44,131 nucleotides of DNA from Methylococcaceae bacterium (GTDB lineage Bacteria; Pseudomonadota; Gammaproteobacteria; Methylococcales; Methylomonadaceae): contig CANGLL010000002.1 in the NCBI GenBank assembly GCA_947454605.1, forward strand, positions 1-44,131, read 5' to 3'. Below the pieces are notes generated by a model, which worked only from the letters and a program-made list of their open reading frames with translations, was not told the origin of the DNA and searched no databases. Shown one piece after another: positions 24,459-30,411 of the stretch. The translations under genes were made by a program, and so were the position numbers. Within the stretch, counting starts at the first letter, position 1. Each line of letters opens with the position of its first letter.

Positions 24459-27400
24459 ATGATGATTATTGACTCAAAAGTACGCCCGTTTTTGCACATC
24501 CTTATTTTAATTTTTAGTGTTATTGGGCTTGTGGGTTTCTCTGAGACTTCTTTAGCTCATGAGCGTTGGATTTTGACTCCTGAGCAAATTAATTACTGGA
24601 ATGGTCAATTGCGTCCAGAGCTTTTTTCTCAGTTTTCGGCGCTTAATGTTTCAATGATTTCAGTATTTTTAATTTTTATTGTGGGATGGGTTTGGCTCGG
24701 GTTTACGGGAGCTCGTGAACTATTCCCTGATTTACAAGCTAGATTATCTTCTTATGGCGATCATGTTCCACGTATTTTAAGAGTCTGTGTTGCTTGGATT
24801 TTATTATCTTCCGCTTTGGGTGCTGAGCCAAGATTTGGTGTGGCCGTTTTTACTACACCTACTTTTTTTGCACCTGATCTTGATTTAAGTCAGTTGGGCC
24901 CAGATTGGGCTTGGTTACGTTGGGCTGAAGTCGTTTTGGGCTTTACGATCCTATTTGGTATTTATGTTCGTTTATTTGCCTGTTTATTAATTTTATTAAG
25001 TCTGTTGGGTTTTTATCTTTATGGTGAGGCTATATTTGCTTATGCTGGCGCTATTATTGGCGCTGGTATTTATTTAGTTCTACAAGGATCTGGTAGACAT
25101 TATTTGCCTTTACCCATTCTAGCTCCTTTTCAAGGAATGCAAACTTGGCTTGCGGAGCAACCGCGTCAGCGTGCGCAAGCTATTATGCGAATTTTGACAG
25201 GAACCACTCTGTTGTATTTAGGTGTATTTTTTAAAGTGATGCAGCCTAATCTTTCAATTGGCATTATTACGCACTATCAATTACCCATATTGTCGGTGCA
25301 GCCAGAGGCTTTTACTTTAGTCATGGCTTTAGTTGAAGTGAGCGCTGGTATTTTGATGATTGCAGGTGTTCTATTAAGACCTTTGTCATTGTTTTTGATT
25401 TCAGCATTTTCTATTTTTGCGATGCTGTTACCAGAAACGGTAACCGAACACATTCTTTTTTATGGTGTGGTTTTATCTTGTCTTATTAATTCTGCCGGAC
25501 ATTTGCGACGACCAATCGCTAGAGATAAAGCGGCAAATATAGTCATTCTTGGTGGTGGGCTTTCAGCTCTGCAAGCGGCTATAAAAATTGAGAGGCTCAT
25601 TGGTCAATACTCTAATGTTAAGATTACTTTATTACATGATCAGGCTAACTTTTTATTTACGCCTTTTTTACCAGAAGTAATCGGTGGAACAGTTCAACCG
25701 GGTAACGTGGTTAACCCCTTTAGGCGCATTATTCAACAGACTAATGTTGTAGTAGGACATTTTGAATCTATAGACGAAAAAGCTCAAAAGGTTATAGCAA
25801 AACGAAAAAATAACGATATTATCGAGCTTCCCTACGATAGTTTGATTGTAGCACTCAGCCCTAAGTCTAACATGGCTGGTATTTCAGGCATGATGGCTCA
25901 TTCTTGTATGATTGATTCAGTGGCGGATGCTCTTCGTATAAGGCAACATGTTTTGGATTTGGTTGAAGAAGCCGAGTTTGCAGATGATGAATTTGAGACA
26001 ATTCGTCTTCTTACTTTCGCTGTGATAGGTTTTGGTGAACAAGCCTCTGCCATAGCGGTAGAAGTGAGTCACATACTTAGATCTGCGGAGTCTTCTTATT
26101 CGGTGTTAAGAGATTCTGGGTGGCAAGTACATCTATTTGAAGAACAAGCACAAAGTTGGTCTGATTTTGAAAAGAAGATTACACCCAAAAGGTCTCGGAA
26201 TCTAAAAAAAGCGGGGGTTATCGAACATTTGCATGATGAGGTTACTAGTGTGACCCAAAGAGACTTATTTTTCTCTAATGGTCAAAGTCAGCCAGTGGGA
26301 CTTGTCATTAATGCTACGAAGAAAATACCGAGTATTACTTTTAAGGGGTATGGGGAGTTAAATTGGCCATTTGTAATGAGTGATGAGTTAAGTTTAAAGG
26401 GATTTGAAAATATTTGGATTACAAAAAATAACTATAATCCGCTTTACCCTCAATTTATTTTCACGAATGACTTGGTTGATTTAGGTTATACCGCTGGTTT
26501 TAATGCTTGGGCGAGTTCACAAGGCTTCAAAACTAGACCTTTTAAGAAAAGAACACATTTAATTCAACCTTATAACATGGCTGAATACTCTTTATGTCGT
26601 TTGGGTTGGTTTATGATCGGTGGAAAGCCGGCATGGTTTGTTTCACGTTTGATTAATATGTTTTCTGTACCGGGTTTGGAGAGAAATTTACGAATTATTA
26701 TTGATTGGTTTTTAGTACTTGCGTTCCGAAATGACATTGCTGTTTTAGCCCAAGCTCCTTCTGCGCATCTACAGAGGTCGCATTTTAAAGCAGGAGATAA
26801 TGTTTTTTGTGCTGGTGATGCTGCTCTGATGGCCTATGCTGTTGATTCAGGGCAATTAAAAGTGCTTCAAGAGGGACGTATAGTTAGAGAGTTAGGGCCG
26901 GGTGATTATTTTGGTGAAATTTTGCCTATGCATAATAATCGTCGTGTAGAAACAGTGCGTTGTATGACGGATTGTGAGTTAAAGATTGTGTCTCAAGAAG
27001 ATCTTAATGCATTAATTAAGAGCGGTTGGTTAATGAGTAAAGCGGTCCGAAATTTAAGACATTATCAATCGGAAGTTAATCGACCTGAGTTTTCATTAGG
27101 TTTAAAAAGATTAACCTATGTAAGTAAAGTAAATGCAGTGTTAGATGAAGCAGAAATTATTGAGATCGGTCGTATTTCTAGTATTAACAATAAAAAGAGA
27201 GATGTGACTGGTGTTCTTATTTCAGTAAAGGATTATTTTTTCCAGGTTTTGGAAGGTGAAGAGTCCACAGTTGATGCTTTAGTGGAAAAAATTAGTAAAG
27301 ATCCTCGTCATAATGAAATAACCATATTAAGTTCAGAAATTGGCTGTGAAGAGCGCCTATTTACCGATTGGGGTATGAAAACGGTTGCACTGAGTGAAAG

Positions 27401-28088
27401 CAATGATCTTATGTTATTGGCCATTGGAATGATGCTACAGAATATAGCGCAATCCTATAGCACAGTGGGCCGTTATACTCAGCCTGTATTGCTTAAATAT
27501 TTAATGGAAGGCATAAATCCTTTAACTATTCCCATTAAAAGTTCAGAAAAAATTGTTGTTTCTGGGAGTATGACTGATTTTTCAGCATTATCTCAAGAAT
27601 TCACTCTGGAGGAAGTCATTAACGTTTTGAATAGTTATTTGGAAATATGTTCGACATCATTTATTGAACACGGTGGCCAAGTGGCAAAATATTCAAATGG
27701 ATGCGTTATTGCTCATTTTTTGCCAGATCAAGTAGATATGGCAATTGCTGCTTGTATTGACACTTTTAGAAAAATTAAGTCTTTAAATAAAAATAGCCCT
27801 ATCTACAATGCTATTACTTTTGGGTTTGGCTTAGCCTCTGCTACTATGATTGAAGGTAATATAGGATCTTCTATAAAAATGGATTATACCGTGTTAGGTG
27901 AAGCCGTCGATCAGGCGGTAAATTTAGGCTTACTTGCTAGAGATTTAAAAATGCCTATTGCAATTAGTCAATCTATTCAATTTCTGGCTGATAAATCTTG
28001 GAATTTTCAAGAGGTTGGGCCTATTTATTTTAAGTATAGTAATGATTCTACTAAAATTTACGGCCTTGTAAGTGTCAGTGAAAGTTGA
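24459..28088 (+). CDS. Multidomain membrane photoreceptor: DoxX-like / NDH-2-like / cNMP-binding / BLUF / cyclase-homology
   Basis: 1209 aa. About 24459-25520 multi-TM; about 25530-26745 NDH-2-like (IVILGGGLSALQAA, FLFTPFLPEVIGGTVQP, GKPAWFVSRLINMFSVPGLERNLRIIIDWFL); about 26750-27070 cNMP-binding (GPGDYFGEILPMHNNRRVETVRC); about 27095-27400 BLUF (LKRLTYVSK, INNKKRDVTGVLI, YFFQVLEGEE, FTDWGMK); about 27545-28000 class III cyclase-like (MDYTVLGEAVDQAVNL). Confidence 0.88.
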   Translation: MMIIDSKVRPFLHILILIFSVIGLVGFSETSLAHERWILTPEQINYWNGQLRPELFSQFSALNVSMISVFLIFIVGWVWLGFTGARELFPDLQARLSSYGDHVPRILRVCVAWILLSSALGAEPRFGVAVFTTPTFFAPDLDLSQLGPDWAWLRWAEVVLGFTILFGIYVRLFACLLILLSLLGFYLYGEAIFAYAGAIIGAGIYLVLQGSGRHYLPLPILAPFQGMQTWLAEQPRQRAQAIMRILTGTTLLYLGVFFKVMQPNLSIGIITHYQLPILSVQPEAFTLVMALVEVSAGILMIAGVLLRPLSLFLISAFSIFAMLLPETVTEHILFYGVVLSCLINSAGHLRRPIARDKAANIVILGGGLSALQAAIKIERLIGQYSNVKITLLHDQANFLFTPFLPEVIGGTVQPGNVVNPFRRIIQQTNVVVGHFESIDEKAQKVIAKRKNNDIIELPYDSLIVALSPKSNMAGISGMMAHSCMIDSVADALRIRQHVLDLVEEAEFADDEFETIRLLTFAVIGFGEQASAIAVEVSHILRSAESSYSVLRDSGWQVHLFEEQAQSWSDFEKKITPKRSRNLKKAGVIEHLHDEVTSVTQRDLFFSNGQSQPVGLVINATKKIPSITFKGYGELNWPFVMSDELSLKGFENIWITKNNYNPLYPQFIFTNDLVDLGYTAGFNAWASSQGFKTRPFKKRTHLIQPYNMAEYSLCRLGWFMIGGKPAWFVSRLINMFSVPGLERNLRIIIDWFLVLAFRNDIAVLAQAPSAHLQRSHFKAGDNVFCAGDAALMAYAVDSGQLKVLQEGRIVRELGPGDYFGEILPMHNNRRVETVRCMTDCELKIVSQEDLNALIKSGWLMSKAVRNLRHYQSEVNRPEFSLGLKRLTYVSKVNAVLDEAEIIEIGRISSINNKKRDVTGVLISVKDYFFQVLEGEESTVDALVEKISKDPRHNEITILSSEIGCEERLFTDWGMKTVALSESNDLMLLAIGMMLQNIAQSYSTVGRYTQPVLLKYLMEGINPLTIPIKSSEKIVVSGSMTDFSALSQEFTLEEVINVLNSYLEICSTSFIEHGGQVAKYSNGCVIAHFLPDQVDMAIAACIDTFRKIKSLNKNSPIYNAITFGFGLASATMIEGNIGSSIKMDYTVLGEAVDQAVNLGLLARDLKMPIAISQSIQFLADKSWNFQEVGPIYFKYSNDSTKIYGLVSVSES

Positions 28089-28205: not shown

Positions 28206-29585
28206 ATGAATAAAAAACCGTTATTGATTTTGCTTGGTGCAGTCGTTGTTTTTCTGCCTCTTTCTAATTTATTAGGTTTGTCCGGAGAGAATGAATCGAT
28301 AGGTGTTGTTTCAGGCAGTACGCCAAATTTTTCTAAAGTTTCAGAAGTTTTTCAGAATAAATGTGTGGATTGTCACTCACCCGGCATGACCCGTATGCCT
28401 ATCTATGCAAATTTACCCATTGCAAAGCAATTAATGGAAAAAGATATCAGTAATGCTTCTGCTAGGTTGATTTTGAGTAAGTCACTTTATAGTGGTGAAG
28501 AAAAGTTTACAGCGTTAGATTTAGGAAGATTAGAAGCGGTGTTACTAAATAATAGTATGCCACCACATTTATATCTTTCAATGCATTGGACTGCCAAATT
28601 AACTGAAGATGAGAAACAGACTATTCTTGCTTGGATTTCGGAAGAAAGATCTAAATTAACATGGAGTATTGATTCCAGTAAAGATTTAAAAGGTGAACCA
28701 ATACAACCCTTGCCCTTAAAAGTGGCTGTTGATGATAAAAAAATAGCGTTAGGCCAAAAGCTTTTTCACGATACATCTTTATCTGGCGACAATACATTGA
28801 GTTGTGCTTCTTGCCATGATTTAACTAAAGGGGGTACTGATCAAGCTAAAGTAGCGACAGGTATAAAAGGTCAGCAAGGACCTATTAATTCACCTACTGT
28901 TTTTAATGCAATGTATAACGTTGCTCAGTTTTGGGATGGTCGAGCTAAAGATCTACAAGCGCAAGCTGCAGGACCAGTTGCCAATCCTGGGGAAATGGGA
29001 GAGCAATGGGATAATGTAATTGCAAAGCTCAAGCAGATTCCTGAATATCAAAATGCTTTTCAAAAAATTTATGAACAGCAAGGCTTAACTAAAGAAACAG
29101 TCACTGATGCGATTGCTGGTTTTGAACAATCATTAGTGACACCTGATTCTCGTTTTGATAAATACTTGCGAGGCGATAAGGGTATTTTAACGGCTGATGA
29201 AAAGTCGGGTTATGAGTTATTTAAGCTAAATTGTGCTTCCTGTCATAATGGGCCTGCAGTGGGTGGGTTAAGTTTTGAAAAAATGGGCGTTAAACAGGAT
29301 TATTTCAAACTTCGTGGTGGACAGCTTACTGAGGCAGATAATGGCCGTTTCAATGTAACAAAAGAAGAAAAAGATAGGCACTTCTTTAAAGTGCCCGTAT
29401 TAAGGAATGTTGAAATAACGTATCCGTATTTCCATGATGGCTCAGTTAATAATTTAAACGATGCTGTCAGAATTATGGGACAAGTTCAGCGAAACAAAAA
29501 CTTTAATGACACTGAAATTAATAACATTGTTAGTTTCTTAAAAACGTTAACAGGTACTTATAGTGGTAAGTCTCTAAAACAATAG
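28206..29585 (+). CDS. Tri-haem cytochrome c peroxidase / MauG-family protein
   Basis: 459 aa; CVDCH, CASCH, CASCH; SGDNTLSCASCHDLTKGGTDQ, NSPTVFNAMYNVAQFWDGRA. Confidence 0.88.
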   Translation: MNKKPLLILLGAVVVFLPLSNLLGLSGENESIGVVSGSTPNFSKVSEVFQNKCVDCHSPGMTRMPIYANLPIAKQLMEKDISNASARLILSKSLYSGEEKFTALDLGRLEAVLLNNSMPPHLYLSMHWTAKLTEDEKQTILAWISEERSKLTWSIDSSKDLKGEPIQPLPLKVAVDDKKIALGQKLFHDTSLSGDNTLSCASCHDLTKGGTDQAKVATGIKGQQGPINSPTVFNAMYNVAQFWDGRAKDLQAQAAGPVANPGEMGEQWDNVIAKLKQIPEYQNAFQKIYEQQGLTKETVTDAIAGFEQSLVTPDSRFDKYLRGDKGILTADEKSGYELFKLNCASCHNGPAVGGLSFEKMGVKQDYFKLRGGQLTEADNGRFNVTKEEKDRHFFKVPVLRNVEITYPYFHDGSVNNLNDAVRIMGQVQRNKNFNDTEINNIVSFLKTLTGTYSGKSLKQ

Positions 29586-29664: not shown

Positions 29665-30411
29665 ATGAAATATATTCCACTACTCTTTGTGCTGATCCTA
29701 GCAATATTTGGCCTTAGTGTTGAGTTAAATCCTAATGCTCAGTCATGGCAATTGTTAGTTGGATTTCATTTAGCCGAATTGGCCGCATTGACTGAATTAT
29801 CTTTGCGAAACTTAAAGCAATTATCGACAACAAAACGTTATTGGTTTATTGGATTGCAATTATTGGCATTTAGAATTGCTTACTTCCCTATAGTGGTATT
29901 TTCAGCTACGGTTTCTTGTTATACAGAGTTAGTGTTACAAAAATTGGGTATTGATTTACCCATTCAGGTTTTTCCCGAGTTGTTTTTGAGTGGTGCAGTG
30001 TTTTTTGCAGCAATTAGTTGGGTATTATTTTGGGCGCTGAAAGAACGTTTGGCATTATTTGGCTTAATCGCAATTTTAGGGTTGCCTGCTATATTGATTT
30101 CTTTTGCCGATAGACAAGATATAACGCTATTACCTGACAATAATTGGGCAGATATTCAATTACCCAAAGTCAGTTTGCCACAAGCTAATCCTTATGGCGT
30201 TGCGCTAACTGCGAATAATAGTTTGGGTCAAAAGATGATTGGCTTATCTGGATTTTTACTTTATGAGTATATTCCTAATTCACCTTGGGCTCAGGCAGTG
30301 CAGGGGACATTGGAGCAGGCTTATTTAAAAAATCCGAACGGTAACGCTCATGATCAATTAACGTATCATTATGCGGCTTTTTTAGCCGCTCATCGAGCGG
30401 TTTATAAATGA
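29665..30411 (+). CDS. Multipass membrane protein, unknown
   Basis: 248 aa with several hydrophobic segments. Confidence 0.6.
   Translation: MKYIPLLFVLILAIFGLSVELNPNAQSWQLLVGFHLAELAALTELSLRNLKQLSTTKRYWFIGLQLLAFRIAYFPIVVFSATVSCYTELVLQKLGIDLPIQVFPELFLSGAVFFAAISWVLFWALKERLALFGLIAILGLPAILISFADRQDITLLPDNNWADIQLPKVSLPQANPYGVALTANNSLGQKMIGLSGFLLYEYIPNSPWAQAVQGTLEQAYLKNPNGNAHDQLTYHYAAFLAAHRAVYK

Follow-up and report, generated by a model that had tools for sequence, protein, structure and literature searches.

A blue-light receptor domain and a predicted pseudo-cyclase fused to a DoxX-NDH-like membrane protein in methanotrophs and Nitrosomonas

A single open reading frame (ORF) in a methane-oxidizing lake bacterium of the Methylococcaceae joins a membrane module, a flavoprotein fold, a cyclic nucleotide-binding (CNB) domain, a BLUF photoreceptor domain, and a class III cyclase-homology domain. 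The same architecture forms one clade across methanotrophs and Nitrosomonas; outside this clade, relatives encode the membrane protein and an intact BLUF-cyclase as two separate genes. In the fused proteins, all domains are under purifying selection and the BLUF photochemistry residues are invariant, and residues for making and reading cAMP have been lost. As a whole, these observations are best explained by a cAMP-independent blue-light switch acting on a membrane redox or stress module, which arose after a photoactivated cyclase (PAC) was fused to its target, a reading that we consider fairly probable.

A five-module ORF

The window, that is, the whole 44,131-nucleotide stretch analyzed here, contains the fusion ORF at positions 24459..28088 (1209 amino acids, ATG start, zero internal stops); this ORF and all window features described below as parts or partners of it lie on the forward strand. 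The sequence-only reading had described five modules in this ORF, and Pfam, an alignment to OaPAC, and a fold search recovered all of them. Hydropathy and conservation indicate a putative signal peptide or first transmembrane segment (residues 1 to 33; 24459..24557), with an AxA motif immediately preceding the invariant His34-Glu35. It is followed by a double DoxX-type membrane module (residues 34 to 350; 24558..25508), assigned from Pfam, hydropathy, and an AlphaFold model. In the window copy, the DoxX match at residues 241 to 321 reaches 23.0 bits, slightly below the cut-off of 23.6, whereas six relatives score 24.9 to 33.8 bits, above the cut-off, with two matching stretches per protein in most. 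The next module has the NDH-2 fold (residues 355 to 765; 25521..26753; Pyr_redox_2 at residues 360 to 620, E = 5.6e-17), and leads into the CNB domain (residues 766 to 870; 26754..27068; cNMP_binding at residues 775 to 854, E = 1.1e-15, 57.8 bits versus a cut-off of 27.5). The BLUF domain (residues 882 to 974; 27102..27380) is recognized with 89.3 bits (cut-off, 25; E = 1.8e-25). The cyclase-homology domain of the window copy (residues 1010 to 1205; 27486..28073) is too diverged for Pfam; residues 882 to 1203 nevertheless align end to end with the BLUF and cyclase domains of OaPAC (254 bits, E = 3e-74), which is the domain layout of a PAC. The DoxX helical bundle is modeled with a pLDDT of 87. 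The full-chain AlphaFold model, proposed as a check in the same reading, has a pTM of 0.42, too low for inter-domain geometry to be used.

An artifact, be it a missed stop or frameshift or a chimeric contig joining two genes, is hardly credible. Some relatives do have two genes where the window has one, and nothing else was found that would favor this explanation; against it, the same stop-free ORF is present in many independent assemblies, including those of isolates, and purifying selection extends across the junction.

Distribution and the unfused state

About 31 fused orthologues were identified in methanotrophs (Methylobacter and Crenothrix) and ammonia-oxidizing Nitrosomonas, isolates included; carriers include Crenothrix D3, Methylobacter KS41, and the isolate Nitrosomonas aestuarii Nm36. 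Within the family, 18 of 151 genomes (the window included) encode a full-length copy and one more a partial copy, and these copies are 51 to 97% identical to that of the window and free of stops. A scan of named genomes yielded 51 loci, from Methylobacter, Crenothrix, other Methylococcales, and Nitrosomonas, and, in a shorter form, from Methylocapsa, Methylococcus-type methanotrophs, and Reyranella-type Alphaproteobacteria, with a truncated fragment alone from SAR324. Across 321 genomes of the class, a search recovered no further full core and only a DoxX-only relative. A strict link to pMMO/AMO was considered and is not relied on here: a pmoA/amoA domain was detected in 7 of 18 genomes searched, several of them incomplete assemblies, and in none of the Reyranella-type or SAR324 genomes. 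A phage or plasmid origin was considered and rejected, as no relatives were seen in viral contigs or in plasmids. The architecture is thus no one-off but a clade across methanotrophs and Nitrosomonas with unfused ancestors. The absence of a described precedent was borne out: none of the papers searched describes it, and the openly licensed literature yielded no report of BLUF fused to DoxX or to NDH.

The DoxX-NDH-CNB core is a gene of its own in seven Methylococcus-type loci. In five of these seven, a separate BLUF-cyclase gene, with its own GAGGAGAG ribosome-binding site and ATG, lies 154 to 232 bp downstream of the core; in Methylolobus and Methylotetracoccus, the separate BLUF-cyclase is located about 1.6 kb away on the opposite strand. 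A further two-gene locus (L081) ends within the BLUF gene, and four alphaproteobacterial loci encode the core without an attached BLUF domain. The core tree groups all fused proteins in a single clade (SH-aLRT, 100), outside which the separate-PAC and core-only forms fall, and in the tree of the BLUF-cyclase part, the fused copies again make up one clade (SH-aLRT, 99). Because both trees agree on one fused clade, a single fusion event is the simplest history of these proteins. Given this shared descent, the residue counts among fused copies reported below are not independent and represent one event per trait.

At two of the loci with separate genes, a metallo-beta-lactamase-fold protein is encoded after the BLUF-cyclase (L087, 8660-10042; L082, 12199-13182), and the L087 protein also has a response-regulator domain. 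A three-gene light/cAMP cassette is possible at such Methylococcus-type loci.

Cyclase, cyclic nucleotide, and light-sensing residues

The separate BLUF-cyclases retain both metal-binding Asp residues, the transition-state Asn and Arg, and the base-recognition Lys and Thr in 7 of 7 cases, and on these grounds the unfused Methylococcus-type proteins look like true PACs. Conversely, mapping onto OaPAC places S1037 and G1081 at the two metal positions of the window copy and D1151 and N1155 at those of the transition-state Asn and Arg. The first metal Asp is missing from all 31 fused copies examined, replaced by Ser, Cys, or Lys, and the second from 29 of the 31. Asn or Arg persists in a few fused copies and, since some of these are early-branching or belong to Nitrosomonas, decay of the active site seems to have been stepwise. 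The class III cyclase-homology domain claimed in the sequence-only reading is therefore real as homology, but its catalytic residues are gone, and the fused domain is predicted from them to be a catalytically dead pseudoenzyme.

The CNB domain of the fused proteins has changed as well. Its phosphate cassette reads FGE...R829-V830-E831-T in the window copy: FGE and the Arg are kept, with V830-E831 in place of the (S/T)-A of the pattern FGE..R(S/T)A(T/S), and cyclic-nucleotide-binding kinases in the PDB show R(S/T)AT at the aligned position. The second residue after the Arg is Ala in 12 of 12 unfused proteins and acidic in 32 of 32 fused ones (Glu in 31, Asp in 1). An acidic side chain beside the cyclic phosphate should disfavor binding, although Glu might be tolerated there. 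Because this residue is acidic in every fused copy, nucleotide binding by the fused CNB domain is doubtful; the domain that the sequence-only reading reported thus stands, but not its cNMP pocket as a safe assumption.

Could the fused protein still be a light-driven source and sensor of cAMP (or cGMP), with a cyclase working through unusual residues and the CNB domain serving as an intramolecular receptor? The cyclase fold and purifying selection on it have been retained, and so have the base-recognition Lys and Thr and, in the CNB domain of the window copy, Glu820 and Arg829. The losses of metal and transition-state residues and the acidic replacement in the cassette make this explanation very improbable, and the genomic background argues in the same direction. 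In the window's genus, neither class I nor class III adenylate cyclases other than the fusion, nor CRP above the cut-off, were detected in the two representatives G012 (99% complete) and G136 (100%). Crenothrix and Nitrosomonas carriers possess other class III cyclases, so an absence of cAMP would not hold clade-wide.

In contrast to the decayed cyclase site, the BLUF residues Y887, N911, Q929, W971, and M973 (window numbering) are invariant in 38 of 38 fused and separate sequences, which bears out the earlier observation that the photochemistry residues are intact. The fusion is also the sole BLUF protein in the window's genome assembly. Between close pairs, dN/dS lies well under 1 for each domain of the fusion; it amounts to 0.03 to 0.14 in the BLUF domain and mostly to 0.10 to 0.28 in the cyclase-homology domain, the highest among the domains. 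Judged by these ratios, the pseudo-cyclase is under relaxed yet non-neutral constraint. This pattern would be expected if it served as a scaffold or relayed a signal, and the relaxation could also reflect general C-terminal decay. An alternative built on the latter holds that the fused C terminus is a light-independent dimerization scaffold in passive decay, its BLUF domain being kept for the fold or for flavin redox sensing. Some BLUF proteins do have redox or light-independent roles, and the high dN/dS of the cyclase domain would fit; however, retention of all five photochemistry residues next to a decayed cyclase site, together with light-linked neighbors in several loci, renders this explanation unlikely.

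On the evidence of these residues, the fused clade has lost cAMP synthesis and has probably lost cAMP reading. Because both the cyclase active site and the CNB pocket lack key residues, a direct action of light on the membrane protein is probable in the fused form. In the ancestral state, light would have driven cAMP production by a PAC, and the cAMP would have been read by the CNB domain of the membrane protein; in the fused state, the BLUF signal would reach the membrane module as a conformational change passed through a pseudo-cyclase dimer and the CNB domain, without cAMP. The full evolutionary scenario, in which a messenger pathway was short-circuited by fusing a cyclase to its own cAMP-controlled target, after which the making and reading sites were lost and a direct light-gated membrane redox protein was left, is advanced more tentatively, at slightly less than even odds.

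The membrane module, its neighbors, and known systems

The model of the sequence-only reading would have an active NADH:quinone reductase of the NDH-2 type under light control, and several features favor it. The fold is that of NDH-2 (best target, 4nwz, TM-score 0.79), the first GGG Rossmann motif and the GxG second motif are kept in most family members, and the C-terminal membrane-associated helix is conserved as in NDH-2 relatives. However, a comparison based on a PDB profile alignment and on L107 and L108, the ordinary NDH-like proteins closest to the family, showed that the GD dipeptide for FAD binding, the catalytic Glu of GVE, and the quinone-site TAQ motif, all present in L107 and L108, are absent from every member examined, fused and unfused, and the fused copies L014, L015, and L016 also lack the second glycine-rich motif. 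With these motifs missing, NADH:quinone activity or redox catalysis cannot be assumed, and this part of the protein may be inert. An active light-gated reductase is accordingly given a low probability: of the respiratory-type NDH-2, the fold was confirmed but not the catalytic signature. The broader role suggested in that reading, in which light would control a redox module or a scaffold in the membrane, is plausible.

For the DoxX module, assignment of a function by fold was attempted and rejected, as the search returned no significant structural match. Its top matches, the membrane regions of vitamin K gamma-carboxylase (E about 0.3, TMq about 0.4, non-significant), give at most a hint of quinone binding. 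As a separate observation, the predicted signal peptide AxA followed by the invariant His-Glu (window 24555-24563, residues 33 to 35) recurs in L106, L113, and L114, DoxX-only relatives included. By analogy with CopC-like proteins, the His at the mature N terminus could be a metal (copper) site. The alphaproteobacterial DoxX-only genes L113 (7185-8692) and L114 (7408-9034) are each paired with a His-containing protein of ~150 amino acids to which no family was assigned.

The most regular neighbor of the fusion is a gene encoding Haem_bd, CCP_MauG, and cytochrome c domains with three CxxCH motifs, a peroxidase/MauG-like protein identified by Pfam and synteny (28206..29585 in the window). Of 26 testable fused loci, 18 have it on the same strand less than 500 bp downstream, and in some it touches the stop of the fusion; it was not seen adjoining the early-branching (including the earliest-branching) or Nitrosomonas copies. 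The remaining synteny is lost beyond the closest relative. DNA photolyase, short LOV/PAS and SRPBCC proteins, and DUF1722 are encoded near some fusion loci, the photolyase/LOV neighborhood being found in a minority. In Nitrosomonas HTM.4 and an uncultured proteobacterium, SRPBCC-like and short LOV/PAS proteins lie directly upstream of the fusion (L092, 6861-7845; L060, 4524-5493), with a photolyase nearby in L092. In the window, a 248-amino-acid membrane-like ORF without a Pfam or NCBIfam match (29665-30411) adjoins the peroxidase gene, and its relatives occur near the fusion loci L049 and L053. No Rfam match to an RNA element was found flanking the fusion gene.

The output of the proposed cAMP-independent switch is the weaker part of the model. 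It may be a DoxX/NDH-like activity, either redox or related to envelope stress, that the switch regulates and that works with the neighboring tri-heme peroxidase, and might serve a photo-oxidative stress response in light-sensitive methane and ammonia oxidizers. If the model is true, these genomes preserve a rare case in which all stages are alive, from neighboring sender and receiver genes with intact cAMP machinery to a fused form whose messenger chemistry is gone, and show how direct allostery can take the place of a diffusible second messenger. The protein would then provide a natural actuator by which blue light controls a membrane flavoprotein, and methane and ammonia oxidizers, whose activity in lakes is reportedly inhibited by light, as has been proposed for lake methanotrophy (PMC12211021), would have a dedicated blue-light receptor.

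Among known systems, DoxX proteins, such as those of the mycobacterial DoxX-SodA-SseA complex and the RpoE2-controlled DoxX operon of Haemophilus, share the DoxX repeats and are tied to envelope and oxidative-stress responses (PMC7907618); here, however, the DoxX unit is doubled and shares one chain with sensor domains and a flavoprotein fold, and no SodA or SseA neighbors were seen. The NDH-2 enzymes (PDB 4nwz and 5na1) resemble residues 355 to 765 in fold (target-normalized TM-scores of 0.74 to 0.79) and differ by possessing the GD motif for FAD, the catalytic Glu, and TAQ. OaPAC and bPAC (PDB 4yus and 5m27), which combine BLUF with a class III cyclase, match residues 882 to 1203 end to end at about 40% identity in a structure search, with all BLUF residues shared, whereas the fused copies are joined to a membrane DoxX-NDH-CNB protein and have lost residues of the metal site (Asp) and of the transition-state pair. 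Judged by its residues, the fusion thus falls outside both the PACs and NDH-2 and would work like a BLUF photoreceptor whose effector is dead. In a 2014 census, 64% of BLUF proteins were of the short type and 34% of EAL types. A parallel for a dead effector is E. coli YcgF/BluF, in which BLUF is combined with a degenerate, enzymatically inactive EAL domain (PMC4844311); that protein differs in having an EAL rather than a class III cyclase domain, in lacking DoxX, NDH-like, and CNB modules, and in its soluble output through YcgE.
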